Notes under the pieces: generated by a model
Databases searched by the model: none
The model's input: the letters and a program-made list of their open reading frames with translations, nothing else
What the model was told of the DNA's origin: nothing
Program-made: the position numbers and the translations under genes
From: Gymnopilus junonius
Taxonomy: Eukaryota > Basidiomycota > Agaricomycetes > Agaricales > Galerinaceae
Assembly (NCBI GenBank): GCA_015501075.1
Contig: JADNYJ010000037.1
Location: 124,001-188,000, forward strand
Direction: 5' to 3'
DNA: 64,000 bases
In this document: positions 16,369 to 54,899 of the stretch, piece by piece
How the letters are laid out: every line of letters begins with the position of its first letter
Position numbering within the stretch: position 1 is the first letter of the stretch

Positions 16369-18031
16369 CTAAATTTTTAGTATCCGCATTCCAGATACTA
16401 AATCGAGTTTCTGGTGCTTCCATGACCGAGGGTAATACGGTTCGACAGAGAGGTCTATTGCCATCCCTTTCCTTCTGCGCTCCAAGAGAAGGCCTCTCGT
16501 CTCCGGATCTATAGATGGTAACGCGTCTTCCGTACAATTACCCACTATGCTGATGCCAAAGAGGGGATACTTCCTGGCGCTAGGTCCGGCAGATTCATAA
16601 TTGAGGAGGCAGAGCTCCTGTACAATATCCCATTGTATACGTCGTGCTCCCATTTCCAAGATTTGAGTGCAGGAAGAAACTTGCCTCCTTCCGGGCGGGT
16701 CTCTAATATAAGCGATAGAAGGTCGTTGAATGATAGCATCGAGGGATGCCGTGGATGGCGATTGATGGCAAGTTTTTCAAGCAACGGACGTGATTCGAGG
16801 AGATTGATGAGATCATTGCTAATTGACTGTTCTTCGCCTAAGTATGTTATCGATTACCAAAGTACGCAGAGGGCACAGAGACCGCTGTAGAAATTGATGT
16901 AAATCTTCAGCGGGTAGTGATGGGTCCTCCATATCAATGACGAGATTTTGAAGGGAGGGCAGGTCTATAAATTGGAAGAAGAAACTAGCGAGCGACTCTT
17001 TTGTGAATTGAATGTTAAGAGATGTAATTGTGGAATGTGTACCGGCAGCAATATTCTGCAAGGAAGTCCTCAAGGGATCGACACACACAGTACAGTCGAT
17101 CATGTGTGTAGCCATCTTGAACAAATCAAATGTAGTGTCAAGGAGAAGTACGCTGTCTGAGATATGCTCGACATTACTCCAGTCAATATCGAGGTGTTCT
17201 AGTGTCACATTCCTCAGGCTGACAGAGGTCGGGCGCGGTTTGCTTGCTGCAGAACCGAACGTTGTTCCTGGATGTGACAGTAGTATGACAGAGCCGTATG
17301 ATGTCCAGGCCCAAGAGCGAAGGCGCAGTATTTTCAAGATCGGAGTGCCCAAGTAGGCTCAATACGACAACGAAGATCCTTCCAGAACCCTTTCGTAATA
17401 TCACAATCAAGACTTCCCACCGATCCGAACAGCTGCTGAGTGCCTCGATGAAAGGAAGGGGTAAAAGTTCCTCGTCGTCATCAAATCCATAGAAATTTTG
17501 ACCATGACTTTCGTTTTCATCATCACCTTCTCCGTCTTCTTCTTTAGATAGTCGAATTATGATGGATAGGGGCATTTGGCCGGAACAGCGAATGTGTTTT
17601 GTGAAGATATGCAGGTTGACGTCGCTAGTAATTTTGCTGATGAAGAGCCGGATATATGTCCACAGGGCAGGCATGGACTCGACATGGTCACGCCATGCTT
17701 GGCAAACGGCGGCCAACGTTATAGGTGAGTACAATTTGTTTTGACCTGGCTCGCGAGCCACATATAACTCGAATATGTGGGTGACTATCTCTGTGGGCAG
17801 AAGGCTCTTCACGATATCGTGTTCATAGTTGCGCTCCGACTTTATCTCCTGGCGCTTGAGTAAGAGTTGTTCTGGATACTCCTTCGCGTCAGCTATCCGC
17901 AAGTTCAAGCAGATGATTTCCTCGCAGCTGGTACAAGGACCTCCATTGCGTATGGTGCACAACTTGTACTCTTCCTTGTTAGATGATTCAAGGCCGCCGT
18001 ACTTGTCAGAGGGTACATGGGTTGGAAGCAA
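16369..18031 (-). pseudogene. F-box protein with Cys-rich leader, frameshifted
   Basis: The N-terminal part (18,031 to about 17,400) has the leader YKLCTIRNGGPCTSCEE, then a basic coiled stretch, then the F-box-like LLPTEIVTHIFELYV and LAAVCQAWRDHVESMPALW. After SSCSDRWEV the frame shifts relative to the neighbour at 18,739-20,432. LRR-like text resumes at 17,352-16,819 (TPILKILRLRSWAW..., LPSLQNLVIDMEDPSLP), shifts again at 16,784 (EKLAINRHPRHPSM) and again at 16,659 (RRIQWDIVQELCLLN...). At least three frame changes without splice signals point to a pseudogene. It is the F-box member of the left arm of the inverted duplication. Confidence 0.7.
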
Positions 18032-18738
18032 TTGGGCGAGAAAATGGACCTAGATGCGAGTGATTAGACATAGTATTAGGCTTATATCACGGAGCTATTT
18101 TACCCTTCCTATTGTATGGAGAATGTTCAGCTCAATCTAGCTCTGCCTGACTCCAAAATAATCGGGTGTGAACGCGAGTCATCGAGGGTTGACTTCTGAG
18201 CGATGTAGCAGTTGAAAGATCGAGCGTTGCAGCTCGCCAAAAATAGATCACAACACATTTTTCGCTGAATTCTAGGGTCCGACGCATTGATCTCTGGAGC
18301 TTTTTTTACTTGATGAGTTGTTTGGGTGTCATCGAGCTGGAATGGAAATGATAACCATTTGTTGCACAGCGCTATAGCTGTGCAGTAGACTACGCAAACG
18401 AGGATCATCAACGTTCTATAATTTTACAACTTGAACCATCCGATCTACTCACGTGCCAAGTTAGCCACTGACGGTTGGCAACACTCACTATCGCCTTGCT
18501 TTTTTCTTGCTTTGTCCCACCTTTCTTCTTATCATACTATATGTATACAAACTTCTTTCTTTCCATATAATTTATAAGTTTTGGAACTATGTATGTACTT
18601 ATCTACTATCTTGTGTTCATCTTATGCTCCCTGTAAGGCGTTATCTGTCCCTCGTTGTCAGTGCATCTCGTTCACCGATAATTTCCGAGTTCAATTTCCC
18701 ACTAAAATTTGTTGACCATTCCAGATAATAAGTCGAGT

Positions 18739-20432
18739 TTATGCCGCTTCCACGACCGACGGAATTTGAAGTGGGTTGACATAGAGGTCTATCACCATCC
18801 CTTCCCTTTTACGTTTTAAAAGAAGGTCTCTGCCTCGGTTCAATAGATGGCGAGCTCCCCTCTGCGTAAAATAGTCCACTATTTTGATGCATAAGAGGGG
18901 TTTCTTTCTTGCCATAGGCCTAGATGCCTCCGGGTCATAACGAGTAGGCATAGCTGCTGGACGACATCCCATTGTATATCCCGTGCCTTGACCTGCAAAT
19001 TTTGAGTGCAGAAAGAATTCATGTCCTTCCAAGCGGGCCTTCAATAATTGCGATAGAAGGCTGTTGAGTGATGTTTTGGGGTACTGTTGATGGTAAGTTC
19101 TTCAAGCAATGGAACCGATTTGAAGAGACTGATAAGATTTTTGCTGATAGAGTTGTCGCTCTCTCCTGCTATGTTATCAAGTGTTATAGTACGCAAACAA
19201 CGTGAAGCTCGCTGTAAGAATTCATTTAAATCTCCAATAGGCAGTTCTCTTTCTTCCATATCGACGATGATATCTCGGAGGGAGGGAAGATTCATCAGTC
19301 TGAAGAAGTGAGAAGCGAGTTCTGGATATTTCTGGAAATAAATGTGAAGAGATGTGAGCACGGGATATGTGTGGACTTTGAAATTCTGCAATCGTTTCCT
19401 TATGATATCGACATGAATGGTACAGTCGACCATTTTGTGGGCCAAATCAAATAGATCAAAGGTGATGTCGAGGGGAACTACACTGTCTGTGATGTGCTTG
19501 ACGCCGCTCCAGTCAATATTGAGGTATTCGGGTGTCATATGACTCAACCCTACAGACGTCGGGCGTGGTTTGCTGACTGTAGTTGCTTCAGAAATAAACA
19601 TTGGTTCTGCATGTGTCAAAAATGTTCTGAGACCATGTGGTGTCCAGCCCCAGGAGCAAAGTCGCAGTGTTTTTAGGCAGGCGGTACCCAGAGCAGAATC
19701 GACGCGGCGACGAAGACGCTTCCACACTCTTTTTGTAATGTCACAGTTGAAGACTTCCCATCGATGTGAACAGGAACTGAGCGCCTCGATGATGGGAGTG
19801 GATAATAATTCTGTGTCATTTTCCTCATCACTTTCGTCGCCATTTCCTCGGCCATTCGAACCATAAATGTCATATTGATAACCATCTTCGTCCTCATCAT
19901 TTTCATCCTCCTCCTCCTCAACATCTTCTTCATCATCCTCTTCAGAAGCCTCTTTAAGTAGTCGAATTTCGATGGAGAGGGGGAGTTGGCCAGAACAGGC
20001 AATATGTTTTGTAAGAACGTGTAGGTTGAAGTTGCTGGTACTTTTGCTAAGGAAGAGCTGAATATATTTCCAAAGACTGGGCCTGGACTCTATGAATTTA
20101 CGCCAGTGTTGGCAAACGGCGGCCAATGTCATGGGCGAGTAAAGTTCATAATAATCCGGATCAGGAGCTACACATAATTCAAATATGTGGATAACTATCT
20201 CCATGGGCAGAAGATTCTTCATGAGATCGTGTTTATTGTTGCGCTCCAACTTTATCTCTCGGCGCTTGTGCAAGAGTATCTCCAGTTTCTCCTTCGCGTC
20301 AGCTATCTGCAAGTTCAAGCGAATTATTTCCTCGCAACTAGTGCAAGGATTTCCATCGCATATTCTACATAGCTTGTACAGCTCTCCGTCGTCCGATGGA
20401 TCAAGACTTCCACACCAATCGCAGAAATACAT
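18739..20432 (-). CDS. F-box protein with N-terminal Cys motif and acidic insert
   Basis: The ORF at 20,432-19,041 codes 463 residues. Order: CDWCGSLD...LCRICDGNPCTSC (residues 4-36, possible zinc-binding Cys pairs), a charged helical stretch, the F-box-like LLPMEIVIHIFELCV and LAAVCQHWRKFIESRPSLW (about residues 75-125), an Asp/Glu-rich insert (about 160-210), then LRR-like repeats. F-box proteins bridge Skp1 and substrates in SCF ubiquitin ligases. The ORF stops at 19,041, but text typical of the family C-terminus (KPLLCIKIVDYFTQRG..., LLKRKREGMVIDLYV) continues in another frame to 18,739, so the last 100 residues are out of frame. It may be translated as the shorter form. Confidence 0.65.
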
Positions 20433-20828
20433 GCGTCGGAAGGAATTGTTCGAGAAATTGAACCTAGGTTTGACTGATCTGATAAGTAATACGATATCGA
20501 TATCGGGTTTACATTAAGGAAATACTTCTGCTCACCTGCTCTATAGCGTAAGATAAGATATCGCCACCCAGATTTTATAATGGATCCAGCTTAGACTGTC
20601 CTGAGTTCAGCAGAGTAATGAAGAGGATGACTGTCAGACTGAAGGAGCGTGTGGGCACCATGTTGAAATTGGCTAAAAATAAAACACATGGATCTAAATT
20701 TAGAAGGTAGAGTAGAATATGGTTTTCGACCAGCGATAAGTTTTTTGAAAGAGAATATAATGTCCTGATACATTACTAGACCCTATAACTGCAAATACAA
20801 CTGACGAATGTTCTGATCATCACTATAT

Positions 20829-22092
20829 TCAATTGTTGATCAGTAATATAGTTATCAAATCGACTTTTTGCCCCTTCCATTCATTGTTGAAAGGTTCGCA
20901 TTGGGTTCGGAAGGGCGTCACATGAAGCAGCTGGATGAGATCATGATCCGTGAGTCTTGCAAACTGAAGCAAAAATTCATGCATATGGCAAGAGGAACAA
21001 TCGGCAAAAGAGACCATATCCTTCACAGGTAATTCGCTATGTAAAGTCTTGATGAGAAGCATGTTGAGTGAAGGTAACTTAGGTATCGGAAGAAGAAATT
21101 GATATATGAAACTTCAGTCAGCAATTTGATTCTGATGAAAGCAAGATTACAATGTTCAATACTCCTTCCCCTTTGGAGGCTCAGGGTGGAGGAGAAGCGT
21201 GCATTGACTGCAACACTACAGCAGCCTAAGTTTGGGCCCATGCCAGAGGATAAACACTGCATCAATCCATATGTTTTCGACAATAGCATATTTGACAAAA
21301 GTCCAGTCCATGTCCAAGCGCATTGGGTCAATTTCCGAAAAATGGATAGCACTGGGGCGAGCATTCAGGGGCCGAACCTAAGACATTTCTTGCTTCAGGC
21401 TGGGCTACCCTTCGAAGAGAAAATCCGCAGTCCTCGTAACTTAGAAGTATTTTGAGGTAACAGACCAGAGCCAGTATCAAAGAGGTCTCACAGTGTGCAA
21501 GGAATTTGCAGATTCAGGTTAATCCATTGGTCAGAACAGTCATTTATCGCATTAATAAGTGGTCAGAATATTACCTTTCCTGCATCTGTGTCGTTGAACG
21601 TAGTGGGCCCAATTTGTAATTCAATAGAAAAAGGGAGTTATCCAGAATGTTTGATGTGATGTAGCAGGAATTTAAAGTTTGGTTCGCAGGTATCACCATG
21701 GTCAACAGCAATAATGATATACTTCCAGAGACAGGGCGTCGACCATGCGATCATTCTCCATGATTGACGAACTTTGCCCAAGACGAATGGTGATGATCGC
21801 TTTCTGAGAATGCGAGAAACAAGCTCTGTGGCATTCGACGGAAGACAGGGTCATGGTTATGATTGAATTTGGCCTTCAGACTGCGTCGCCTGTGCAATAG
21901 GTTTTCCAGAGCATTCCTTGCCTCCAATGTCTGTGCATTCAACAAAGGTAGCTCGCCACAGCTATCACAAGGACTTCCTTGGTGTAGGCCACAGTTCTTA
22001 TAGAATTCTTCATCAGAATTGTCTAGTGCTTCGAGGCCCCCACATTGACCGCAACGATGCATACCTAGGCAGCCTAGCAAGAGCAGATGCAC
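20829..22092 (-). pseudogene. F-box family relic
   Basis: The N-terminal signature is visible at 22,056-21,751: CGQCGGLEALD...NCGLHQGSPCDSCGELPLLNAQ. It then decays: an F-box remnant near 21,820 (RMPQSLFLAFSESDHHHSSWAKF), LRR-like scraps at 21,364-21,023, and a family C-terminus near 20,900 (GQKVDLITILLINN). No frame is long enough for a functional protein. It lies back to back with the gene at 22,408. Confidence 0.6.
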
Positions 22093-22407
22093 TAAAATTT
22101 AGCTTACAGGTACTCCAAACACATCGTGACGAGAAAATAGACTTACTTTAAACCCTTACTTAAAACCGTAAACCTAACACGAGAATATTAGAATGAAAGG
22201 GACAATGACTCAATAAACAGTTGGGAACTTGGAAGATCGCGTGCATCATGTGAAGTAACATTACATAATTGATTCGGCTCGCTCCTTTCCTCTAAAGCCA
22301 AACTCTCAAGCTTTTTCAAACTTCTGACCTCGAGTCCCTTTCGCCTTGCCAATTCACAGCCGCTCGATACAATTTTTCTCTGATATCACATCTGATTAGT
22401 TGCCAGA

Positions 22408-24059
22408 ATGCGTCGCTGTGACAAATGCGGCAGTCTCGACATTCAAGTTGCTCCCTCAGACAATGAAGAACAGTACAGGCCGTGCGACATACGCAATGGT
22501 GATCCTTGCATTAGCTGCAGGGAATTATCCTGCGTGAATCTGCAGATATCCAACGTGAAGGACCAGCTGGAGAAGTTGCTGTACAAGCGCCGCAAACTAA
22601 AGACGGAGCGAAATCATGAGCATGATCTCATGAATTCTCTACCGATGGAATTGATCTCCTACATATTCGAATTCTATGTCGCCGACATGTCGACTGATAA
22701 CCAATGGGGCTCGCCCATGATATTGTCTGCAGTCTGCCAAGCTTGGCGAAAATTAGTCGAGTCTACGCCTGTCCTTTGGACATATATTCAGATTTTTCTC
22801 AGCAAAAGTACTGTCAGAATCAATGTTGACATTCTTACAAACCATATCCATCATTCTGGCCGACTCCCTCTCTCAATCAAAATTCGAGCCGAAGAAACTA
22901 AAGATGATATTTATGCCAGAATGGATATAGAATCACGATTTACTCCTTTCGTCGAAGAGCTTTGTTCTTGCTCAGATCGGTGGGAAGTGTTTGATTGTGA
23001 GGTCGTAAACGGAATCACCTGGAGGCGCCTCCGTCAGCACATTGACGGCGCACTGGGTGCTCCCATTTTGAAAACGCTTCGCCTTTGGTCTCCCCTCTCA
23101 CAGCCATATCTAATGCATGGCGAATCGACGTCTCCTTCTGCCCTAAGCAAACCCTGTCCAACTTCTGTCAGCTTCAGACATATGATTCCGCAATACTTCG
23201 ATATTGATTGGAGCTGTGTTAAGCGAGCAACAGCGACTAACATCCCTGGTGCCGCTATATTCAACGTGTTTGCCTTGGCTGAGCAAGCAACCAACTGTAC
23301 TTTCCACGTTATCGATGACATTTCATCGAATGACACACTAAATGCAAAGACGACACATTCCATGATCACACATCTTACCGTCGCCTTTGAGTCTAGTTCA
23401 AGTCACACACCGATGATTCGATTATTTATGTTCGCGACTCTTCCCTCCCTTCAAAAACTTTCCGTCAATCTCTTTTTCAAACTATTGCCTGTAGACATGT
23501 TAGCGCGATTTTTAAAGAAGTCAGCGTGCCCTCTACGTTCCCTCACTCTGGATAATGTAGGAACCAAAGGGTATGATGACAGTTATAACAGTAATGTCCT
23601 CATCAATCTCTTCAAGGCAGCTCCATTACTTCAAGATCTGGCTATCAATTGTTATCCGAAGGATTCTTTGACACTGCCATGCAATGATCTTTTGTTTAAT
23701 TTATTAAAAACCCGAACTGCTTGAATGACGGAGAAGTGCTCCTTCCTGCACTCAAAAGTTTGCAGATCAAAGCAAAGGACATCAAATGGGATATTGTAGA
23801 GCAACTATGCCTCCTCAATCATGAAGCCACCGGGCCTCTACTCCCTCGTGTGCGGATCGTGGATTATTGTACGGGCTTGCCCACTCTCGAGCTAGAGAAA
23901 AGGCGCATGCTTGCTCACCGTAGAAGGCAAGGAATGGTGACAGACCTCTACGTCGCACCTTTACATCGTACAGGGAAAAGCGACAGATTGGATCTAGTAA
24001 CTGGATTGTGGTTCAAAAGTTCTAGTACTAGATGGATCTTGAACCAGTTAACTGGATAG
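22408..24059 (+). CDS. F-box protein with N-terminal Cys motif
   Basis: Starts MRRCDKCGSLDIQVAPSD and carries CDKC...C...PCISC in the first 36 residues, then a helical charged stretch (NLQISNVKDQLEKLLYKRRK). The F-box-like segment follows: LPMELISYIFEFYV and LSAVCQAWRKLVESTPVLW. LRR-like repeats run to residue 438 (for example LPSLQKLSVNLFFKLLPVDM). The ORF stops at 23,724. The usual C-terminus (VLLPALKSLQIKAKDIKWD..., RQGMVTDLYVAPL) continues in the next frame from 23,735 to 24,059, so a small indel near 23,715 separates the two. It could be a recent lesion or a sequencing error. Role inferred from family: substrate receptor of an SCF complex. Confidence 0.7.
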
Positions 24060-31801: not shown

Positions 31802-32315
31802 CGATAAAAATGACCATTGGTCGGCTTTGGCTCTCTTTTGTTTAAAAAGGTTTACAGTTACGTTGGTCTTCAATTGAATCTACTTATTGAACCCATGTCC
31901 TGACTCCCGAACTTGAACTTACCAGCACGTCTTTTCGTTTGTGTTCTTTCAAAGGCTAGTCTATCATTACTGTATATAAGAACCCCTTTGATAACTGAAA
32001 TACAATATACCCTTTGTGATCGAAAACGCGTCCCTTCTCCCTTCTTCCAAATTTGACAAGACACAGGTTATAAAAAAGTGGTCTACATGAACGGTCTTGA
32101 CTGCTCCTCCACCACTCGATTACCCGTTCCTCCTCTACTTTTTGAACAATACCTGACTGGTCTTCTTGAGACGATAGGTGGTCTACAATTTTGAACGATA
32201 ACATTACGTCTTTACAAGTAAGGTTAGGACACTCCTTATAATCAATCAGTCTTTTTAATTAGCGATGCGTCTAGGTTAAATTCGATTTCTCGGCCAGTGT
32301 CTTTAGACTTGACCT
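31802..32315. other. intergenic, upstream of the intact F-box gene
   Basis: No gene seen. Confidence 0.4.
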
Positions 32316-33923
32316 ATGCGCCGCTGTGATAATTGTGGTAGTCTCAATTCTTCACTGGATGAAGGAGACCTCTGCAATATATACAATGGGGTTCCTTGCG
32401 CTACTTGCAAGCAACTGTCGCTCTTGAACTTACAGATAGCAGAAGCGAAAGACCACATGGAGAAGCTCCTCCACGAGCGCCGAAGGATGAAATCAGAACG
32501 CAACCGGGATCACGATCTTCTGAATGCTTGTCTGCCCCCGGAAATAACCGCCCGCATATTCGAATTGTATGTCGCACCAACGTCAGAACCCAATCACAGC
32601 AAACGGGTCCCGAGCTCGCCCATGATATTGGTTGCAGTCTGCCAGGCATGGCGTGACTTAGCCGAGCGTACACCAAGTCTGTGGGTATCTGTCCGGATAA
32701 ATCTCACTAAAGATACCAAAGACGCCAGTCTGCAGACCCTCACTCGTCATATCCGTTGTTCTGGCTCCCACCATCTCTTCATTCAGATTCGCCTCCTTGA
32801 GGATGAAACGCGAACTAATGCTGATATCGGAGCAATATACGCCGCTTTTCTCGATACACTCAGCACCTGTTCTAAACGGTGGCAAGTCCTCGATTGCGAT
32901 ATCACAAAAGAGTTCTGGGAGCGTCTACGTCTCTGTCTTTGTGCTGGTACCGACCCCATTGAGGCACCGGGAATTGTTGCTCCTTTCTTGCAAACGCTCC
33001 GACTGTACTCTTTACGTGGTGATATTCTAACGGAAGAAGACGTATTCTCCCGTGGGCTATTGGACGTAACTGCTGTGCCCCAATTTAACCCCACTCATGT
33101 TAGTCTGGAATGTATAGCACCGCCATTCATCGATATTAACTGGACTAACGTTCAGAAGTTATCAGTCCGCAATATACGTCTCGAAGATGCTCTTGATTTA
33201 CTCGGTACAACTGAGCAAATGACCGATTGCGCATTTCATATGCACGAAAAATGGTTTTACGCCATCCCAAGGGAGCAAAAAATGCATCTCATGATTACAT
33301 CCCTCGACATTGGTTTTGAGGGACAGAAAGGCGTCACGATCTTTTTTGATTTGGTGACTCTGCCCTCCCTACAAAGACTAGCCATCAATCTATGCACACA
33401 TACGCTTCCGGCGTATAGTTTCGAACAATTTTTGAAACGCTCTGCGTGCCCTCTGCAGGTGCTGTCCCTGGATGGGGTAAGAAGTACATCCGACCTTGTC
33501 GATATTCTAAAGACCACTCCGTTGCTTCAAAAACTGGCTATGATATCTCACCCATACGACCAGCCAAAATATGGGTACAACGACGTTCTGGTGTATTTAT
33601 TGAAGGCACGCTTGGATAGTATCAAATTCCTCCCTGTACTCGAAGTCCTTTTGATCAGGACTCGCGATATTAATTGGGATGCTGTAGCGGACCTGTGCCT
33701 CGCCATTCATGGAGATGAAGCTTCTGGTCCACCCAACGTGGTCCAGAAGCCCCTCTCATGCATCAAGATCGTGGACTATTACACGCAGAACGGACCTCTA
33801 GCATCTTTTGAACAAGAGAAGATAGGCCTTCTCTCTGAAAGCCGTGACAAGCAAGGAATGGTAAAGAGTTCTACATCAGACCTTTCGACGATGACAATCA
33901 GATTCGGCGTCAAATGGATTTGA
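32316..33923 (+). CDS. F-box protein with N-terminal Cys motif, most complete copy
   Basis: A single 535-codon ORF, the longest unbroken member of the local family. Order: MRRCDNCGSLN...LCNIYNGVPCATC (Cys pairs, residues 4-31), a charged helix (LQIAEAKDHMEKLLHERRRM), the F-box-like LPPEITARIFELYV and LVAVCQAWRDLAERTPSLW (about residues 70-125), then LRR-like repeats (FLQTLRLYSLRGD, LPSLQRLAINLCTHTLP, CPLQVLSLDGV, LLQKLAMISHP) and the C-terminal PLSCIKIVDYYTQNGP. Compared with siblings, the last 20 residues after KQGMV look frameshifted (siblings read GLYVEPF-like text), so the true end may differ. Probable substrate receptor for an SCF ubiquitin ligase. It is the F-box member of the right arm of the inverted duplication. 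Confidence 0.8.
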   Translation: MRRCDNCGSLNSSLDEGDLCNIYNGVPCATCKQLSLLNLQIAEAKDHMEKLLHERRRMKSERNRDHDLLNACLPPEITARIFELYVAPTSEPNHSKRVPSSPMILVAVCQAWRDLAERTPSLWVSVRINLTKDTKDASLQTLTRHIRCSGSHHLFIQIRLLEDETRTNADIGAIYAAFLDTLSTCSKRWQVLDCDITKEFWERLRLCLCAGTDPIEAPGIVAPFLQTLRLYSLRGDILTEEDVFSRGLLDVTAVPQFNPTHVSLECIAPPFIDINWTNVQKLSVRNIRLEDALDLLGTTEQMTDCAFHMHEKWFYAIPREQKMHLMITSLDIGFEGQKGVTIFFDLVTLPSLQRLAINLCTHTLPAYSFEQFLKRSACPLQVLSLDGVRSTSDLVDILKTTPLLQKLAMISHPYDQPKYGYNDVLVYLLKARLDSIKFLPVLEVLLIRTRDINWDAVADLCLAIHGDEASGPPNVVQKPLSCIKIVDYYTQNGPLASFEQEKIGLLSESRDKQGMVKSSTSDLSTMTIRFGVKWI

Positions 33924-38669: not shown

Positions 38670-40933
38670 ATGGCCAACGTATACGCTACTCCGAAGGGAG
38701 GAGCCTCCTTAATCCTTTCTTTCAGACTTCAACACAAGACGACTCTCATTATCGGTTCTGGAACTGGCAGCGACAAGAGCCTTTGCAGCTTTGGAAGCAG
38801 ATTCGGAGGTCATTATATTGGCCAAGGGTGGCTATAACTCTGCCTGTGACGAGCTGCGGTACAGAGCGCGATTACACGAACTTCAAATTGTCGATTGGGA
38901 CGGCCTGCCAGGCTCTTCGGACCCTAGCAGTTACACGAACACCTTGGAGGCATTTCTGGACACAACACCGAACGTAGCACTGGCTATCGTTACGATTACC
39001 CTCTACACAGAGCCTAGGACTGACCGCGTCTCGGCAGAGCGTATTTATCGAATTTTCAAAGCACGGAACATCCCTGTGAACACCACGGACGTTGTCGACC
39101 TCTCGGACTTTTCATTCACATCTTCTCATCGATTCGAGCACCCAAAAACTGGAGAGAAGACTCCTCTGCAGATTGGGGTCACAACCAATGGCCATGGATG
39201 CAGGCTTTCTGCCCGTCTGCGACGAGAGATTGTAGCCAAGCTCCCCAGAGAAGTTGGTACCGCTGTCGAGAAAGTTGGTCGTATGAGGGATCTTGCAAAA
39301 GATCCTCCAGGTGCCTTCCCAGGACCTTTGGCTGCTTTAGAAGATGAAGTTCACGAGGAAGAGGAGATTGGGGAAGACAATGCCATCTCAACTCCCAACC
39401 GGCCCGTTCCGTCTAGGACTGGCGTGGAGAGTGCTGTTGAGGCTAGGAGGAGAAGGATCAAATGGGTCGCCCAAGTAAGTGAATACTGGCCGATATCCAA
39501 GCTCGCATCAATGTCGGAAGAAGAAATGAAAGATGTCCTAGCAGAGGACAACGGCTTATCTCTCAATTCCAATGCAAATCATACCAAGACCCTTTCAAAT
39601 GACGACAACAGCAACCTCTCAGCCACTCAATCTCAGTCTTCGTCCAAAGACCCCCAGCCGCAACCATATTCTCAACCATTTCTCCATTTCGGGCACCTTT
39701 CCATCTCACCCTCTGCAAAGTCAACCAAGCCCGGTCGAATCCTTCTAGTAGGCTCAGGACCCGGACACCCCTCTTTGCTAACCATCGCCACACACACCGC
39801 TCTGACGCAACACGCAGATTTAGTGCTGTCAGACAAGCTTGTACCTGCTGCGGTGCTCAACCTAATCCCGAAACACGTTCATGTGAGAATTGCGAGAAAG
39901 TTTCCCGGAAATGCTGAAGGCGCACAAACAGAGATGATGGAAGCTGCTGTCGAGGCTGCGAAGCGCGGGTTGACGGTCGTCCGTGTACGCACTATTTTCC
40001 TCACTTTTCTTCTTTTCTTCATTTATCTGGATACATAACTGACGGTTCCATGCATCTCTCTCTTTCTTCCATGTTTATTTTTATCAATGCACCTATGCAC
40101 ATACAACTTGAAACAACGATCCACCTAAACAGCTCAAGCAAGGTGATCCAGTTGTGTATGGTCGTGCGGGAGAAGAAGTACTCTATTTCCGCTCACATGG
40201 ATTCGAGTCCCTCGTTATCCCCGGTGTCTCCTCCGCACTGGCTGCGCCGACGTTTGCTGGGATCCCAGTAACCCAGCGTGGTGTGGCCGAATCATTCATC
40301 GTCTGTACGGGCGTAGGAAGGAAGGGACAGGAGGTCCAGTTACCTGGGTACGAGAGGTCTAGGACGCTTCTTGTCCTTATGGGTGTAGCGCGCATAAGAC
40401 AGGTTGTCGACGCGTTGCTTTTCGACGACAGCGACGTTGAGGGCGGTGACCACGTGTCAGCTACCTCTCCTCCAGATTTGGGTTCAGATAGGGACCAAGG
40501 CGGAAACACCTTGCCCAAGCCCAGCCAGCAACAGAAACGTCGCGACGGACCTGCCTATCCACCTCACACGCCCATCGCGATCATAGAGCGAGCTTCCATG
40601 CCAGATCAGAGGGTCATCTATTCGACGTTAAAGGATATAGTACGAGCCCTAGAAAGCTCTGGAGAACAGAGACCGCCAGGCATGATGGTCATTGGTTGGG
40701 CCGTCTTGGCTCTCAGTGGCGCTGGGGACATGGGAGTGCTTGATGATCATAATGTCACTGCTAATTCTGGTGCCGAGGCTCGCGTGGGTGATGGGGGAGA
40801 AGGAGGAGATGTGCTTGCACTGGGGAGGCGGGATCGAGAGCGTGTAGAGAGTTGGTTGGGATTAGGAGGTGATGGAAGAGCTGTTGGATGGAAGGTACAT
40901 GAGGGGATTGAATTAGGGTGGGACACCCTGTGA
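38670..40933 (+). CDS. siroheme synthase-type fusion: Met8-like domain plus uroporphyrinogen-III C-methyltransferase
   Basis: Makes siroheme, the cofactor of sulfite and nitrite reductases. The N-terminal part resembles Met8 (precorrin-2 dehydrogenase/ferrochelatase): TLIIGSGTG, then LAATRAFAALEADSEVIILA and ARLRREIVAKLP. The C-terminal part is a SAM-dependent methyltransferase of the SUMT family: RILLVGSGPGHPSLLTIATH, ADLVLSDKLVP, then across an intron (39,985-40,132) LKQGDPVVYGRAGEE, VIPGVSSALAAPTFAGIPVT and RTLLVLMGVARI. An Asp/Gly-rich insert near 40,430-40,560 lengthens the protein. One oddity: the glycine-rich nucleotide loop (GSGTG) and the following LAATRAF lie in different frames, with a one- or two-base discrepancy at about 38,762. 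The longest intact ORF starts at 38,791, after the loop. Confidence 0.85.
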
Positions 40934-41713: not shown

Positions 41714-42544
41714 TTAGCTACCCATTTCCCTCGACTTCAGCCACTCCCCATGATCTTCCTGATTCTCTTTCACCGCATTATAGACCGCTTCCCAATCCTT
41801 GCATTCATACACACCATGCCAATCAATTGGATTCTTGTGAGACGCGAACTGGAAGGACTCCAGTTCTAAATCGCCATGACACATCACCATTTGGCGGATA
41901 TAGTTGAGACAGTGCCGGGCTAGCTCCGTTTGTTGGGCAGAATTAGCTCCAGGAACGGGACCCGCGTAGTTCTCACTCTCGTCGGCGTCGGCGTCACTGC
42001 TGGGGCTGGGAGTGCTGCTCTCGGTGCTGCTGCGATTCCTGACCATTTCCTCGCGTATAATATCTAGACATTTAAGCTGGTGGATCATCGCGACTGTATA
42101 TGGTTGGCGGTGCGGCCCAAGATGAACGACTCCGTTCCCGGGTGCCTGTGCACCCCACTCTGCAATACCCGCTGGCTCGTCCAGTCGGAAATGCTTTGGA
42201 TTGTCGAATGTCATAAGTACTGATTTACGTTCGATGGGCCATACTTCCGGATAGTCATTCCCAACGTAACCTTTGAAAAATCAATGATTAGTCGAGGAAT
42301 CAAGGTCAGTAGTGTATACTCAGCGAGAGGGTTTTTTGCGTCGGCGGTGCCGAGACCATGACAAAATCGCATATCGCGCTCCAAGACACTCACTATATTC
42401 TCTTGTGAGGGATGCAATTTGCTGCTTAACCCACAGCATCCCAACTAGCTTGACCATGAAGCTTATCGCGACCAAGACCAGGCTCAAGCCCGTTAAAGAG
42501 AGGGATGAAGGCCCGCCCCGCTTCCAGGAGGATGAGATAGACAT
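41714..42544 (-). CDS. UstYa-family (DUF3328) membrane oxidase, divergent motifs (UstYa-1)
   Basis: Two exons (42,544-42,394 and 42,270-41,714; 123-nt intron, gtgagt...aaag) give 235 residues. UstYa proteins are fungal membrane enzymes, probably copper-dependent, that oxidatively crosslink ribosomal peptides such as ustiloxin. A membrane helix lies at residues 20-40 (SLVLVAISFMVKLVGMLWV). The join creates the family signature YVGNDYPEVWPI. The two HxxHC motifs are altered: HQLKC (residues 114-118, second His is Lys) and LARHC (167-171, first His is Leu). The surrounding LDIIREEM and LNYIRQMVMCHGD remain typical. A Ser/Asp-rich insert (about 130-160) separates them. It heads the putative RiPP locus, divergent from the 7TM gene at 43,226. 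Activity may be changed or lost. Confidence 0.85.
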
Positions 42545-43225: not shown

Positions 43226-44426
43226 ATGTCTGATGCACTGACCGTGTTCCAGCACTCGTATTATATCGGGAATTACATGAGCGGTATCCTCTATGGTAAG
43301 TGTTCTATATTCAGATCAGAGGGACAACCTGACCTAAAGCCCCTCGCGTGCGCCACAAGGTGTCGAATTGGTCATGTACTTTACGACACTGCAGGGTCTG
43401 GTCCGCAAGGTAGTCATAACTCGCCCAAGGGCAGACGATTCTTTGCGATATACAGTACCATACTGCTCTTGCTGGTTACCATCGACATCTCAGTCAATGC
43501 AGTATGGGGAGAGCAAATGTGGATTACAAATCAGGCCAACGTACCAGAGTTTATCGTCAACGAAACCTCGGTCTGGTATCAAACTTTGGGCTCCACCTCT
43601 GTCGTCGCTTTAATCTTCATGGGAGATGCTCTTTGGTATGTTGCCCTGTGAATCATCGGAATTTTGGCATCCTCTAACCGTCTCGGTCAGTTATACCGTC
43701 TCTTTGTGATCTACGGTTCCAGTTATCTCATCGTAACCCTTCCCGTATTAGCTTATTTGGCTGCATTTGGTAGGTCTGTCATCATTTCTGTGTAACCGAA
43801 GCATCTGAAACCACGTTGTTAGCATTGGCTATCATTCAATTGGTTGTGGCGGGCGAACCGGGCGGCAACTTCTTCCATGGAAAGACTATTAACTTTGGCA
43901 CCCCTTACTACACTATCACCATTGCTTTTAACATCTTTGTTACTCTGGCAATTGTCATCCGCCTCTTGAGACTAGGCAAAGCAGTCTCACGAGCTCTCGG
44001 ACGCGAGAGTGCTCTGATGTACACAAGCGTTGCTTCCATATTGGTGGAGTCGGCCGCCCCGTACAGTATGGTTGGTATCATGTTTTTGATCCCATACGCT
44101 CTTGGGAACGGAACTGCCATCTCGTTCGGACAAGTCTGGGCTAAGATTGCGGTACGTCCTGCTTCTCTTCCGCATCCCGTTTTCGTATCCTCATTCACTT
44201 GTAGTGTCTCTCTCCTCAACTAATTGTTTTGCGGGTGGTAACTGGCAAAGCTTGGGGTCGTGAAATCATCACTCAAGCTCAGAGCAACGTAGAGTTCATG
44301 GTCAAACCTAACGCTCATGCTTCTGGCATCGAGTTACAAAGTCACGCATACAGCCAAGGCGGCACCACTCTGGGCGAGGCCGCCACCGAAAAATGGAATG
44401 GCAGTACCAAGAGTATTTCATCGTAA
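43226..44426 (+). pseudogene. seven-helix membrane protein, frameshifted paralogue (7TM-1)
   Basis: Five exons (43,226-43,295; 43,360-43,635; 43,691-43,769; 43,823-44,151; 44,205-44,426) match 7TM-2 (51,872-53,080) exon for exon; exons 1, 3 and 4 have identical lengths. Hydrophobic helices include ILYG/VELVMYFTTLQGLV, FAIYSTILLLLVTIDISVNA, LIVTLPVLAYLAAF and YYTITIAFNIFVTLAIVIRL. Conserved text: HSYYIGNYM, WGEQMWIT, LVVAGEPGGNFF and ESAAPYSMVGIMFLIPYALG. Exon 2 is two bases short of the expected phase: one base near 43,410 (AAGGTAGT, where the frame needs AAGGGTAGT) and one near 43,633 before the donor site. Both are in short homopolymers, so these may be sequencing errors or true lesions. 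The family is a common Agaricomycete serpentine protein of unknown function. Confidence 0.75.
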
Positions 44427-45451: not shown

Positions 45452-45691
45452 ATGGTTCGATTCTTCATTCTTGCCCCAGTTATATTTCTGGCAGCATCAC
45501 TCATCATAGGGTCTTCTGTAAAGACGAGCGGTGAGATTTGATTCATCCGACGGAAACCCATACATATTATAACTTACTTCCTTTTCTTCCTGGTAGTTGT
45601 AGATAACCTTCTCGATCGCAAAGATGCACAATTCCTTCGTGTCAAACCTGCTGAATCAAATAACGACAGAAACAATCTTTTACGCAAGTAA
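45452..45691 (+). CDS. small secreted RiPP-precursor-like peptide, single core (precursor B)
   Basis: Two exons (45,452-45,530 and 45,597-45,691) separated by a 66-nt intron (gtgaga...tggtag) give 57 residues; too short for ordinary ORF finding. The N-terminus MVRFFILAPVIFLAASLIIG is a clear signal peptide. The body has DRK followed by DAQFLRVKP (residues 36-44), then a polar tail ending NNLLRK. The DAxFLR hexapeptide is the same as the heart of the four repeats in precursor A 1.7 kb downstream, and the gene plan (signal exon, one intron in phase 1, core exon) is the same. A basic RK pair sits just before the core, where a Kex2-type protease could act. Precursor role is inferred from these parallels; a plain secreted peptide remains possible. 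Confidence 0.65.
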
Positions 45692-47182: not shown

Positions 47183-47532
47183 ATGTCGAAAGTCATGCTG
47201 TTCTACATTACAGCTCTACTGCTCGTTGCTTCGGCGATCCCTCTCCCAGGTACGTCCCGACAGTTAATAATGAAAGCAGACTAGCTAATTGTAGCTACCT
47301 GTGCAAAGATGATGGAGGAAATACCCCCACAGACCCCTCAGACGCTGTGTTCCTGCGCTCGCCCCAAGATGGTGGAAGCGGTAAATCGGATGCCGTTTTC
47401 TTGCGTTCACCCCAGGCGGATACTGCCGGCACTCCATCCGACGCTGTCTTCTTGCGCAGCCCACAAGTCGATTCTAGCGATGAGCCGTCCGATGCTGTCT
47501 TCTTGCGCGCTGTTCAAGACGGTGTCAATTAA
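47183..47532 (+). CDS. multi-core RiPP-precursor-like secreted peptide (precursor A)
   Basis: Exon 1 (47,183-47,249) encodes a signal peptide, MSKVMLFYITALLLVASAIP. A phase-1 intron (47,250-47,308, gtacgt...aaag, with a ctaat branch-point-like word 20 bases before the end) leads to exon 2 (47,309-47,532); total 96 residues. A 35-nt intron ending at 47,284 would also keep frame and add eight residues. The mature part is four units of SDAVFLRSPQ (residues 33-42, 49-58, 66-75, 83-92; the last reads SDAVFLRAVQ). Spacers are acidic or small: DGGSGK, ADTAGTP, VDSSDEP. Repeated short cores behind a signal peptide, near UstYa genes, is the plan of dikaritin precursors such as ustiloxin UstA. Unlike those, the spacers lack Lys-Arg Kex2 sites. 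No family is recognised; modification is inferred. Confidence 0.75.
47338..47517 (+). repeat. four in-frame copies of the SDAVFLR core unit
   Basis: Period 16-17 codons. Core codons differ silently between copies (for example gacgctgtgttcctgcgc and gatgctgtcttcttgcgc), while the amino acids SDAVFLR are constant. This hints at selection on the peptide. Confidence 0.9.
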
Positions 47533-48351: not shown

Positions 48352-49359
48352 TCATACAGTTTGATATTGGTTCAAGAAAATGCCTTGAGAATATTCGAGC
48401 TTGACACTCAAGAAGCGCAATGAATTGACTTACCCCAAGTTTGGTTATGATTTGTCCAGACATCGATGTTGCATTCTGGTGAGATATCTGCAGAGACATC
48501 TGCACAAGAAATTTGATATCCAATAAAGGAACCCGACTTGCATGAAAAAGGATCCATTTCCACCTCTTCTCCAACCTTGGCTTCGATGGTTCCCAACTGT
48601 CGTTGGCATACTGGACGGGTTGACCATGTGATTTGGCGTTCCTTCAATGGCCGTTTGACGTCAAGCTCACAGATGTTAAGGCGCACAACATCTTGACTAG
48701 TGGGCAACGTATACGGATGAGGCAATGTATCCCCGCGTCCAGGAAGCCGAACCGCGAGGGTACACTTTTCCATTCCGTAATCCAAGATATGGAACTGGAC
48801 CATGGTATGAATCTAGATAAACAATATGATAGGTAAGGTACGCGACATGACAACGGAAAGAAAAGGAAGTACTTGATTTGACACTTGAAAATGTCGGTCG
48901 GGAGGAGAGAGAACCCCAAAGTCGCTGAGCCAACGATGTGCATCGATTGGGAAGACCCTATTAGGTTCCGCTGGGCTAATTTGAGCAGAGAGACGAGGCT
49001 CGTTGATAACTTTGCTGAAGTGTGAAGGCTTGATGTCGTGGTAATGGTAAAGGTCGTCCAGACCGATATAGGGATTTCGGAATTCCATGTCTTCTGGGTC
49101 TTCAAAAGAGCGAGCGTCGAGGAGCATTTTTCCAATCAAGGAAAAAACGATAAGGTCGACCATGAGAAAAATGACCAAGCCAGCAACAATTGCAAGAGTC
49201 CATGTACTGGATTCAGTGGGGGTCGCTTTCGGTTTTTCTGGTCAAATTCGTTAACAAAGTGTCACGTTAAGCAGTAGGAAGAAGAGTACCAGATTCGTCA
49301 TCATACTCATTGCTGGCGAGAAGAGCGTAGGACTCCGAGTTCACCGTGTTCTGAGGCAT
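48352..49359 (-). CDS. single-pass membrane protein of the Agaricomycete 'YIGLD' family
   Basis: Four exons (49,359-49,290; 49,237-48,873; 48,812-48,434; 48,383-48,352) with introns of 50-60 nt join perfectly to 281 residues. The N-terminus is short and cytoplasmic (SESYALLASNEYDDES). A membrane helix follows (TLAIVAGLVIFLMVDLIVFSLIG), then the ectodomain: RNPYIGLDDLYHYHDIKPS, then FPIDAHRWLSDFGVLSPPDR and QFHILDYGMEKCTLAVRLP, then paired Cys (FSCKSGSF, ISCADVS) and the end GIFLNQYQTV. This pattern recurs in many mushroom proteins of unknown function. I recall it as a family but can name no activity. It is intact and lies tail-to-tail with precursor A, between the two 7TM genes, so it may belong to the same locus. 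Confidence 0.85.
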
Positions 49360-50465
49360 GGCAGGAAATCTTATGCCTGAAGGAAGTCAAGGAAAGACGG
49401 AGAGCTAGTAAGCCTACAGGAAACGACCGTGTAAAGGCCACAGCTGCGCTCCGACCTATGGGCCTGGGTGCCGCAGGACAACCACGAGAGCATTGCTGGG
49501 AGGCTATATCAGGATTTATGCGAAAAGATCTGATCTATGGAGGTCAGTGAGAACCAGGTGTGAACGCTCGAGACATCATAGTTCGGAAGAACTCAACTGT
49601 CGGAGCTGTCAACTCTCCAGAAAATCGACGAGAGAGCACGTGAAGCATACGACGAGTATCCGGGGGGACGGAACTCCAATTTGGCAAGCAATAAGGTTTT
49701 CTCAAAAGAACTTGGTCACTTATAATTGATCTTATTCACTTGCCATGAGTAATGGAACGCAATTATGATGACACCCAGGACAGGGTAATTATTGCGTTCC
49801 CTTGGCCACTGGTAAAGACAATATTCACTATTTTTCCTCTTATTTTACCTTCATCCGATCGCCTACCATATAAATATTGAAAAATAGGTCAAGGGGGTAA
49901 AAGAACGCTACAGGGATCCTAAATATTCGCTAGAGTCTTTCATAGCTTACGATACAGTGGTTTCGGCAGTGTTGAGGGTGAATACGTGGAGCGGCCAGTC
50001 ACCCCATGGAGAGGGCATCATCTTTCTTCCTCTGTGCGTAAGGCCAATGGATACATAGACAGGGACCTTCATGGGATATTAGACCACTTAGAACGATGCC
50101 GAGATGAAACCTACGTTATCGTCATTAGTCGTCGCACAAGCTATCACATCTCCAGATTTCTCGGCCTACCAAAGTAGTATTGAATTCATGGAGAGTTTAG
50201 GTAGAAATTTCATCTCACCTTTATACGAACGAAATCGATCAAAGCTCGCGCGATACCTTTCCTCTGATAATCTGGACGCACCATGGCCATATGAAGCCAC
50301 CAGGAATCTTTCTTACCCTAAAAAATATCTTTGATCAGTAAAACAAGGCGGTAGCCGCTGAAGGAGCGCACAGTATTAGGGCCGAGAAAACCGTTTATAA
50401 AACCCGGAATGTGCGCGAGATACTTTAACGGCAGAACGTGTCAGAACAAACGCACGGATAAAGGA
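49360..50465. other. intergenic, no supported gene
   Basis: Several ORFs of 60-80 codons, none with domains or splice partners. Confidence 0.4.
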
Positions 50466-50992
50466 GTTGCGTAGTAATTACTGTTGTTCGGAAATACTCT
50501 TTCCCTTCTTCAGAAAATCCAGCTACATAATCCTCGTAGCCGAGCTTTCGTTGCTCTTCCCTATTTCCTTGACTCGTCAGATGCCGAGTAGAAGTATACT
50601 CATTGAATATCACTCACGTGCTAAACAACTCCTGGCCAGGAGGCATCCATACTGAATATCCCACAAGTTCTCCCTCTGGATTCGATGCGACATAATATTC
50701 TCCTGCGAATGCTCCTGCGCGAATGGTAGCAAGTGCTTGAAGCCTTATCAAAGCCTTATCGCCGCCAGACAGGCTGATAGCACCCAAATCTTTGGAATGT
50801 CACTCCGAAACGATTCGCTATACAATGAGAGCCATCCTTACTGTCCTTCATTAAGTCGTAAAACAGGTCAGCAGATTTGCTGATTTGCTCTTCTATAGTA
50901 CGATAGTCGTCAAATCGAACTTCCTAAAGATCTGGAAGAAACGGCCACGCACCAGTTGGAGTCACGACGCGCTGAATGGCGAATGCAGACAT
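50466..50992 (-). pseudogene. GNAT-type N-acetyltransferase, truncated
   Basis: Pieces in order on the minus strand: MSAFAIQRVVTPTG (50,992), FDDYRTIEEQISKSADLFYD, then GGDKALIRLQALATIRAGAF and AGEYYVASNPEGELVGYSVW followed by MPPGQELFST, then across a short intron EEQRKLGYEDYVAGFSEEGK. This is the N-terminal half of fungal GNAT-fold acetyltransferases (GExxVA...G...WxPPGQxLFST). A stop follows FLPDL near 50,926. The acetyl-CoA-binding part (R/Q-x-x-G-x-G/A) expected after FRTTV is not found, so the gene is a remnant. Confidence 0.6.
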
Positions 50993-51871: not shown

Positions 51872-53080
51872 ATGGTCAATGCAACGACTCTATTCGAGCA
51901 CTCATATTACATTGGTAGTTATATGGGTGGCATCATGTATGGTAAGCGAATCTACCGCATCCAACCCTTACTTGCGCGCTGATATTTTACAACAGGTTTT
52001 GAGCTTGCTGTGTATTTTATGATCCTTCAAGCGTTATTTCGAAAAGGAAGCAAAAATTCTGCCAGCAGCCGGAGATTCTGTGCTACATATAGCACTTTTA
52101 TGGTCCTGTTCTCAACTATTGATGTTGCTTGTAATGCAATTTGGGGCGAGCAGATGTGGATCACGTACCGAAATATCCCAGGCGGTGTACCTGCATACAT
52201 TGCCGCAAGAGTTTCTGTATGGTATGAAACCATGGGTTCGACATCTGTTGTCTGTTCAGTGTTTCTTGGTGATGGGCTACTGGTAAGAAACTCTTGACCC
52301 TCTTACATTCAAATCCGATCCATTAATTTCCAATCCAGATATACCGCACCTATTTGGTCTATGGGAGGCGTGGTGCCGCTGTAATTCTCCCGGTCTTGGC
52401 CTACCTGGCCGCATTTGGTGAGCCTGATGAACAGTTGTATGCTTTTTAGCGCTAATACATAGCAGGCCTGGCTATCGAACAACTTGTGGTAGCAGGTCGA
52501 CCACACGGAAATTTCTTTGAAGGAGAAAGCGTCAAGTTTGCTACTGCCTACTATTCCATCACGATATCCCTCAACATTCTGTTAACCATCTCGATTTGCG
52601 TGCGACTCGTTCGAATGTCGAGGCGTTTCGCTAGGAGTCTGGGGCAAGAAAACGGTCGAGTCTATACTGGCGCCGCGGCAATTCTCGTCGAATCTGCGGC
52701 ACCTTACAGCGTCTTGGGCCTCATGTACTTGATTCCTTACTCTCTCCAAAACGATACCGGCATCCTATTTGGTCAGCTGTGGTCGAAAATGAGTGTACGT
52801 CACATTTCCGACCTCTTCGCGCTTAACATTTAGCACTAGTGAACTTCGACTGACGGTTATGCTTCTAATCTTATAGGGTATAGCTCCTCTCCTAATTATT
52901 CTCCGAGTTGTCCAAGGCCGTGCTTACAGGGACGAAATCCTGACCAAGACACCCCTTGCTTTCATCTCTACAAATGCCGAACCCCGTCAGCCCACAGTCG
53001 CGTTCGCAACTGACGACACAACCACCTTCGTTTTAGATGACTTACCCACGAAACCTTCCTCTCTCTCTGGTCCAGCTTAA
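51872..53080 (+). CDS. seven-helix membrane protein, intact paralogue (7TM-2)
   Basis: Five exons (51,872-51,941; 51,996-52,282; 52,339-52,417; 52,466-52,794; 52,877-53,080) join in frame to 322 residues. The start MVNATTLFEHSYYIGSYMGG carries an N-glycosylation-type NAT. About seven hydrophobic helices follow, with conserved WGEQMWITYRNIPGG, LVVAGRPHGNFFEGE, ESAAPYSVLGLMYLIPYSLQ and a polar cytoplasmic tail. The layout resembles a serpentine receptor, but no rhodopsin, STE2 or STE3 signature is visible. Such proteins are abundant in Agaricomycetes with unknown function. With its damaged sister at 43,226 it brackets the two precursor-like genes. Transport, sensing or scaffolding are all possible. 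Confidence 0.85.
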
Positions 53081-54173: not shown

Positions 54174-54899
54174 ATGCATGGAAAGGAAGGAGGGAAGCGA
54201 GCTCAAATCTTGGCGATTGGGCTATTGATTGCGGCGTCGTTGTACTTGACGTGGTCGCTGGTCGCCTTGTCTCGGGACGTCAGGGCGTTGATTAGCCTTA
54301 AGGCACACCCAAGGCGGAGGCACGTCGTCAAACCGCTTGATTCATACTGTGAGATTTCCAGTTCATTACCCAGGAAAGAGGCCATGACGAACCTTTGAAC
54401 AGCCTTTATAGGAGCGGACCATCCAAAACGTCTTCCAATTGAAGAGAAACTTGTGAAGCTGAGAGTTGAGGAAAGTGTGCACTATGACATCCTCGCACCC
54501 GAAGCAGCGTCGGAATGGCTGTGGACCGCGACAGTTGGTGATGGACACATCCGCCTCGGCAAAGAAGAGCGGATGTTCGCAGTGGCCATGTCCCATGAAC
54601 TGCACTGCCTGCGCGGAATTCGAGAGGTGATCGAGAATGGCTGGGACATGATTGGCGAATCGCGTCAGCACCACATCTTGCATTGTTTCAATTACCTCAG
54701 GCAGTGGACGCTCTGCGCAGCGGACGCCACGCTTGAGCCAGGAGATTTTACTCAACGGAATTTCACGGCACAGAGAGTCGGGGCGACACATACGTGCGTT
54801 GATTGGTTGCCCACGTACGAGATGATGAAGGATAAGTGGCTTGAATGGGATCACTTCCGTATAGACCACGGTATTCCATGGCATGATGAGGTTACATAG
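54174..54899 (+). CDS. UstYa-family (DUF3328) membrane oxidase with canonical motifs (UstYa-2)
   Basis: Two exons (54,174-54,348 and 54,403-54,899; 54-nt intron) give 223 residues. Choosing the acceptor at 54,402 recreates the family signature YSFIGADHPKRLPI; the nearby tatag acceptor would give a stop. A membrane helix is at residues 12-32 (ILAIGLLIAASLYLTWSLVAL). Both HxxHC motifs are intact: HELHC (123-127) and HILHC (149-153), within SHELHCLRGIRE and HCFNYLRQWTLCAAD. These histidines are thought to bind the metal in UstYa enzymes, which crosslink or cyclise RiPP cores. It lies 6.6 kb from precursor A, at the far edge of the cluster, and is the best candidate for the active modifying enzyme. 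Confidence 0.88.

Follow-up and report, generated by a model that had tools for sequence, protein, structure and literature searches.

Among described fungal systems, the closest to the locus reported here are the dikaritins (ustiloxin, phomopsin and asperipin, with victorin as a relative), whose short precursors bear a signal sequence followed by several near-identical cores, and whose UstYa/DUF3328 genes lie a few genes away from the precursor. In ustiloxins, phomopsins and asperipin the cross-links are made at Tyr, and the tyrosinase, peptidase and methyltransferase content varies among the known dikaritin clusters. The amatoxin/phallotoxin and borosin precursors are not known to have a UstYa association or comparable repeated cores. 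In the accessible part of PMC12048977 these two (the former as MSDIN) are named as basidiomycete RiPP precursors, a standing that they would share with the candidate described below. The KEPs of Umemura 2020 are likewise secreted proteins with tandem repeats, encoded near DUF3328 genes; in the accessible text of that work their definition asks for three or more repeats, of at least 8 residues each, bounded by KR, KK, RK or RR, the mean distance of those with DUF3328 neighbours is 3.09 genes, and Tyr is present in 65.6% of the repeat sequences of the DUF3328-adjacent ones (PMC7329392).

In this work, we have analysed a stretch of 64,000 nucleotides from the basidiomycete Gymnopilus junonius (the window, on contig C301), and we propose, with moderate confidence, that the product of 47183-47532 is secreted and serves as a multi-core precursor, from which a UstYa-modified peptide would arise; it would be dikaritin-like in its working while failing some tests of that family. 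As in dikaritins, an N-terminal signal-like sequence precedes repeated cores and UstYa/DUF3328 genes are close by. Unlike dikaritins, the locus belongs to a basidiomycete and its gene group includes two 7TM genes. Further differences, which count against our proposal, are that the cores contain neither Tyr nor Trp, that the repeat precursor has no dibasic sites for Kex2 release, that the nearer UstYa protein lacks the HXXHC pair, and that no tyrosinase and peptidase were found in the cluster: none of the 19 tyrosinase matches of the genome lies on C301, and S41, the one peptidase searched for, has no match across the genome. Having zero dibasic sites, the precursor also falls outside the KEP rule as worded in the accessible text (PMC7329392). 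The open-access literature, as far as its text was accessible, held no description of this locus, of DAxFLR peptides or of a basidiomycete UstYa product, and the string FLR does not occur in the accessible text of PMC7329392, the sole text checked for the motif. On the evidence that follows, which comes from sequence comparison, the precursor is real, under selection and probably secreted; it has a companion gene, lies among UstYa genes, and is a variant on a known precursor type.

The repeat precursor gene and its homologue

The gene is read on the plus strand as two predicted exons, from start codon to stop, encoding 96 residues. Exon 1 (47183-47249) encodes the signal sequence MSKVMLFYITALLLVASAIPLP, hydrophobic and signal-like as judged by hydropathy and reading rather than by SignalP, and it aligns with the G. 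dilepis protein P0001. A predicted 59-bp intron (47250-47308, GTACGT...AAAG, with CTAAT at 47285-47289) separates it from exon 2 (47309-47532), where DDGGNTPTDP is followed by four SDAVFLR cores (47338-47358, 47386-47406, 47437-47457 and 47488-47508), the variable spacers SPQDGGSGK, SPQADTAGTP and SPQVDSSDEP, the tail AVQDGVN and the stop. SPQ thus follows the first three cores and AVQ the fourth, and the cores are spaced 16, 17 and 17 residues apart. An earlier note on this DNA had described four silently differing core units at 16-17 residue spacing behind a signal sequence and one predicted intron, a description that hydropathy and codon comparison bear out. Its ten-residue unit holds in three copies, but all four agree only over the seven residues SDAVFLR; its variable, acidic spacers are indeed variable, but acidic only on average, the net charges of leader, three spacers and tail being -3, 0, -1, -3 and -1.

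The two-exon structure is a prediction from the letters of the gene. Three intron models were scored by alignment to the G. dilepis homologue, and the protein spliced at 47250-47308 reached 260, against 252 and 254. This top score, together with the branch-point-like CTAAT about 20 bases 5΄ of position 47308, sets the intron best at 47250-47308. Three other phase-consistent models exist beside the scored ones; an intron that keeps the phase could also stop at 47284, 47317 or 47332, or start from another donor, and the 35-bp intron ending at 47284 was dropped because an end at 47308 suits the homologue better.

That homologue, P0001 (G. dilepis CVT26_009457, 94 aa, E 7.2e-19), was the sole one found in 5.8 billion proteins at E up to 10, both in a single-sequence search (213 candidates) and in a two-sequence alignment search (855 candidates). 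Its units are SDAIFLRSAQ, SDAVFLRSPQ, SDAIFLRDPQ and SDAIFLRAFG, so that 25 of 28 core residues match those of G. junonius and all three changes are V to I; P0001 keeps SDA(V/I)FLR, and its spacers drift in sequence at lengths nearly as in G. junonius. Small genes are frequently absent from annotation, and the range of the precursor may be wider. In the G. junonius genome, a protein search with the repeat precursor found only this locus and its near-identical copy on contig C652, in 4 matches. The mature region holds no KR, KK, RK or RR in either species, and neither Tyr nor Trp in G. junonius, in line with the Tyr-free cores and the absence of Lys-Arg sites noted earlier; the one Tyr in the mature region of P0001 is located in its tail.

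Over the seven core codons, the six copy pairs, which are not mutually independent, show 23 silent and 0 replacement nucleotide differences (pS 0.70, pN 0), while the three codons 3΄ of the cores have a pN of 0.37 in the same six pairs. These values point to a peptide, SDAVFLR, that is kept by selection while its DNA drifts, and indicate strong purifying selection on the four cores. When the mature region was shuffled 20000 times, not one shuffle had any heptamer even twice, against the observed heptamer present four times; a three-residue version of the shuffle gave no separation (4 observed, up to 5 in shuffles). The core DAVFLRSPQ proposed earlier is unlikely, since the residues after R differ between copies and between species and the conserved unit stops at R.

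The same figures bear on the possibility that the reading frame is spurious or a sequencing artefact. The contig C652 (locus L013) holds a second copy of the locus, 98.6% identical, with 53 mismatches and 68 gap positions over 8.5 kb, and inside the precursor gene it departs from the window by six differences, all single-base indels, as an artefact might. A conserved homologue annotated in G. dilepis speaks strongly against this explanation, as does a pN of 0 beside a pS of 0.70 in the cores, and we give it almost no credence. Being so close a copy, C652 was rejected as independent evidence; with the further copy pairs C36/C423 and C244/C12, it makes the assembly seem to hold part of a second haplotype.

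A probable single-core companion and a second repeat ORF

On the same strand, 1.5 kb upstream of the repeat gene (1.7 kb from start to start), lies a putative precursor with one core (MVRFFILAPVIFLAASLIIGSSVKTSVVDNLLDRKDAQFLRVKPAESNNDRNNLLRK; 45452-45691, plus strand, predicted exons 45452-45530 and 45597-45691, core DAQFLR at 45623-45640). Its layout is that of the repeat gene, a signal-like sequence followed by a phase-1 intron, for which two other acceptors are possible. After the intron the product reads LLDRK-DAQFLR-VKPAESNNDRNNLLRK, with RK directly ahead of the core. We infer a kinship between the two genes, and the region 45452-45691 is probably a single-core companion of the repeat precursor.

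Among window ORFs of at least 35 residues in six frames, DAxFLR is confined to these two genes; a looser motif in the same scan also caught DAGFLK at 5606-5887. Two genome-wide scans with DAxFLR-like patterns returned 69 and 52 places, against 47 and 46 for reversed controls. Eight places fall at this locus or on its C652 copy, and of 14 others inspected all except L044 encode DAxFLR, once each, with no convincing secreted short ORF among the 14; one weak short-ORF model, in L043, was set aside, since it would break up a longer open frame. In the fetched UstYa stretches, C652 and the window from 40 to 57 kb, a script scan recovered as FLR-type precursors only the two window genes and their C652 copies; a further model of the same scan is a wrong-frame reading of the repeat gene. 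The scan is non-exhaustive, its two-exon rule having missed the repeat ORF on contig C708 described next.

Repeat ORFs were also sought near other UstYa genes of the genome, in 20 stretches no longer than 10 kb each, and one further clear case came to light. This DAxAMF-KR repeat ORF, on contig C708 (locus L017, 6356-6607, plus strand), has a UstYa gene about 3 kb away and encodes five units between acidic spacers, ASAMFKR, DAVAMFKR, DAIAMFGR, DATAMFKR and EAEAMFK. It occurs once in the genome; the script produced no full gene model with a signal sequence for it, yet a likely signal-sequence exon is readable about 240 bases upstream. This ORF resembles the window precursor in its acidic spacers, its DA(V/I/T)..F..R-like units and its UstYa neighbour, and differs from it in a spacing of 11-13 residues, in AMF rather than FL, and in carrying KR after 3 of 5 units, GR once and K at the end; the KR ending of those three units is the one familiar from classical Kex2-processed repeat proteins. 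This KR takes the position held by LR in the window cores, which suggests that both are cleaved at the conserved Arg. The position of this ORF near another UstYa gene supports the reading of a UstYa-modified multi-core precursor. On contig C893 (L033, 4308-4427, minus strand), an acidic 12-residue unit (EEPEPEQMRPR) stands three times in tandem, with a UstYa match on either side, and may represent another precursor.

Could the product of 47183-47532 instead be a repeat protein, small and secreted, that works as the intact, uncut chain, in the cell wall, at the surface or in an effector-like manner? It is short, it has no recognised protease site, and the spacers are of near-equal length in G. 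dilepis, as one might expect of such a protein. Its spacers, however, vary in sequence and charge around an invariant core, and a separate gene bears a single copy of the core, which together make the pattern that of a carrier of peptides rather than that of a fibre; we regard a whole-acting protein as quite improbable.

The UstYa genes and other neighbours

By gene reading, the order from left to right is UstYa-A, 7TM-A, the single-core gene, the repeat gene, a But2 protein, a GNAT protein, 7TM-B and UstYa-B. The earlier note had placed UstYa genes nearby, and PF11807 indeed matches at about 41.7-42.5 and 54.2-54.9 kb; it did not register the putative second precursor at 45452, nor the 7TM genes, nor that the nearer UstYa has lost HXXHC. 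UstYa-A (41714-42544, minus strand, E 6.8e-18, 65.8 bits) has exons at 42544-42394 and 42270-41714, set by eye with, as a guide, the N-terminus of P0003 (CPB84DRAFT_1678951), the matching G. junonius gene model, which skips part of the reading frame. UstYa-B (54174-54899, plus strand, E 4.4e-15, 56.6 bits, exon limits by eye) has an N-terminal hydrophobic segment. Both scores exceed the curated cut-off of 25 bits, and the genes lie 4.6 kb (UstYa-A) and 6.6 kb (UstYa-B) from the repeat gene, three and four genes away.

The two proteins share only a distant likeness (28-29% identity over 172 residues). The pair of HXXHC motifs, quoted as a mark of RiPP-related DUF3328 proteins in the accessible part of PMC12048977, is present in UstYa-B (HELHC and HILHC) and missing in the nearer UstYa-A (HQLKC and LARHC). 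UstYa-A and UstYa-B were compared together with the 50 database hits of UstYa-A, 52 sequences in all. The first motif reads HQLKC in 33, HQLRC in 15, HQLSC in 1 and HELHC in UstYa-B, with 2 not located; HXXHC as second motif was seen in UstYa-B alone, with 1 not located. Within those limits of location, HXXHC was found in none of the 50 hits of UstYa-A. By these sequences, UstYa-A represents a clade without the HXXHC pair, mostly from Agaricales with few hits beyond; its relatives mostly carry HQLKC or HQLRC with xxRHC and perhaps form a separate functional clade. Three other UstYa loci of the genome (one is present as two near-identical copies) have HQLHC with HFRHC, HIQHC or HMKHC. A PDB sequence search with UstYa-A gave 0 matches, and its predicted structure was too poor for use (mean pLDDT 59.1, pTM 0.37).

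In G. dilepis, the best relative of UstYa-A is P0002 (CVT26_009445, 84% identity). It and P0001 are each assigned to a contig of 93,707 bases, and very probably share that one contig; their locus tags are 12 apart, and if the tags run in order the gap between precursor and UstYa gene there is about 12 genes and not 3. Homologues without a UstYa neighbour, or with the repeats as part of a larger structural protein, had been named as grounds for abandoning the reading; neither was seen, the sole homologue found being a 94-aa protein with the same contig figure as the UstYa relative.

Over the whole G. junonius genome PF11807 has 42 exon-level matches, spread over 17 contigs and counting near-identical copies. 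Taking each contig with a match as a locus, copies counted, the surroundings of these 17 UstYa loci out to 6.5 kb make up about 0.4% of the genome. Two UstYa genes within 7 kb of the precursor are therefore hard to square with the view that its cores are released by cutting after Arg as unmodified linear secreted peptides (hormones, pheromone-like or defence peptides) and that the UstYa genes act elsewhere. Recurrence of the precursor-UstYa pairing in G. dilepis, very probably on the same contig, and a second repeat ORF (C708) near a UstYa gene also weigh against it. This view does fit a core without Tyr or Trp, and the flanking membrane proteins could be receptors of such peptides. It also fits the wide range of the relatives of UstYa-A, which occur in many mushroom genera, far beyond a precursor found in Gymnopilus only, so that UstYa-A may serve another substrate. 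In the accessible text of Umemura 2020, only 103 of 1680 basidiomycete KEPs have DUF3328 neighbours, and the possibility is raised that such peptides are hardly cyclised in Basidiomycota (PMC7329392), which would again suit a linear product. We hold linear peptides to be unlikely, if not to be dismissed lightly.

The remaining neighbours are a But2 C-terminal domain protein (48408-49359, minus strand, PF09792, E 1.6e-7, limits approximate, N-terminal hydrophobic segment by eye) and a GNAT acetyltransferase (50100-50990, minus strand, PF13508/PF00583, limits approximate, exon pieces joined by hand). Beside UstYa-A, at 38713-40933, lies a sirohaem synthase / tetrapyrrole methylase gene (PF00590, PF14824, PF14823), whose domains mark it as a housekeeping gene rather than a borosin-type methyltransferase. 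Several paralogues of one gene family (MRRCDxCGSLD..., F-box/LRR-like by eye) lie in both orientations at 17183-23724 and 32313-33923.

The 7TM family and a proposed route for the peptides

7TM-B (51872-53080, plus strand, limits by eye) has about seven hydrophobic segments and no Pfam match at E up to 1 and no NCBIfam match; of three 7TM fragments compared with Pfam, two gave sub-threshold DUF6534 and DUF3681 only. Its paralogue 7TM-A (43226-44426, plus strand), also a multi-span membrane protein, is frame-shifted in the window but not on C652, by assembly error or as a real allele. Searched against the whole genome, 7TM-B has 25 matches. With C652 (a copy of C301) and C268 (a presumed copy of C107) set aside, these fall by contig into 11 loci; one more weak match, next to a UstYa gene on C92, turned up only when the fetched stretches were compared locally and was left uncounted. 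Four of the 11 loci (C301, C77, C36 and C423) lie within 6.5 kb of UstYa matches. C36 and C423 share 93-96% identity across most of the stretches compared, so the fairer count merges them, giving 3 of 10 loci against about 0.04 expected (binomial 6.5e-6), for an association spotted after the fact. As a control family, DUF6534 had 0 of 29 matches within 6.5 kb of a UstYa match, and generic DUF6534 proteins were accordingly rejected as a UstYa-associated family.

These counts (3 of 10, or 4 of 11 unmerged, against DUF6534 at 0 of 29) raise the prospect of a peptide-signalling module, in which UstYa-modified DAxFLR-type peptides, released by a monobasic protease from precursors free of dibasic sites, would be sensed by the co-clustered 7TM family; 7TM-A and 7TM-B do lie between the two UstYa genes and flank the precursors on both sides. 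Such a module is nevertheless very doubtful: the association is post hoc, nothing marks the family, which has no Pfam match, as one of receptors, 7 of 10 of its loci have no UstYa match nearby, no precursor was recognised at the other 7TM-UstYa loci, and 7TM-A is frame-shifted in the window.

We propose that the multi-core precursor would enter the secretory pathway, where a lumenal UstYa oxidase could modify the core S-D-A-(V/I/Q)-F-L-R. UstYa-B, having both HXXHC motifs, would more likely be that oxidase, with UstYa-A perhaps as a partner. The modification would probably fall on Phe or on an aliphatic side chain, as the core has no Tyr or Trp. In this respect the core differs from the Tyr-rich known ones, as had been pointed out, but it would not be unprecedented: victorin is described as Phe-Leu cyclised in the accessible part of PMC9233826, which keeps a Tyr-free F-L core within what is possible. 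A protease might then cut after the conserved Arg, where the C708 ORF has KR, and an exopeptidase would trim the ends; a Kex2-like enzyme is likely available, since proprotein-convertase P-domain matches are present in the genome. Each core would yield a single short oxidised peptide. The new RiPP family put forward in the earlier note is likewise a hypothesis.

What would such a locus mean for mushroom peptides? Surveys that require dibasic sites would miss this precursor, which has no dibasic Kex2 site in either species, and the requirement can thus hide precursors. The locus offers a concrete candidate pair of precursor and enzyme in a basidiomycete rich in UstYa genes, and it suggests seeking conserved single-Arg cores, together with the HQL(K/R)C-type UstYa clade, in mushrooms.
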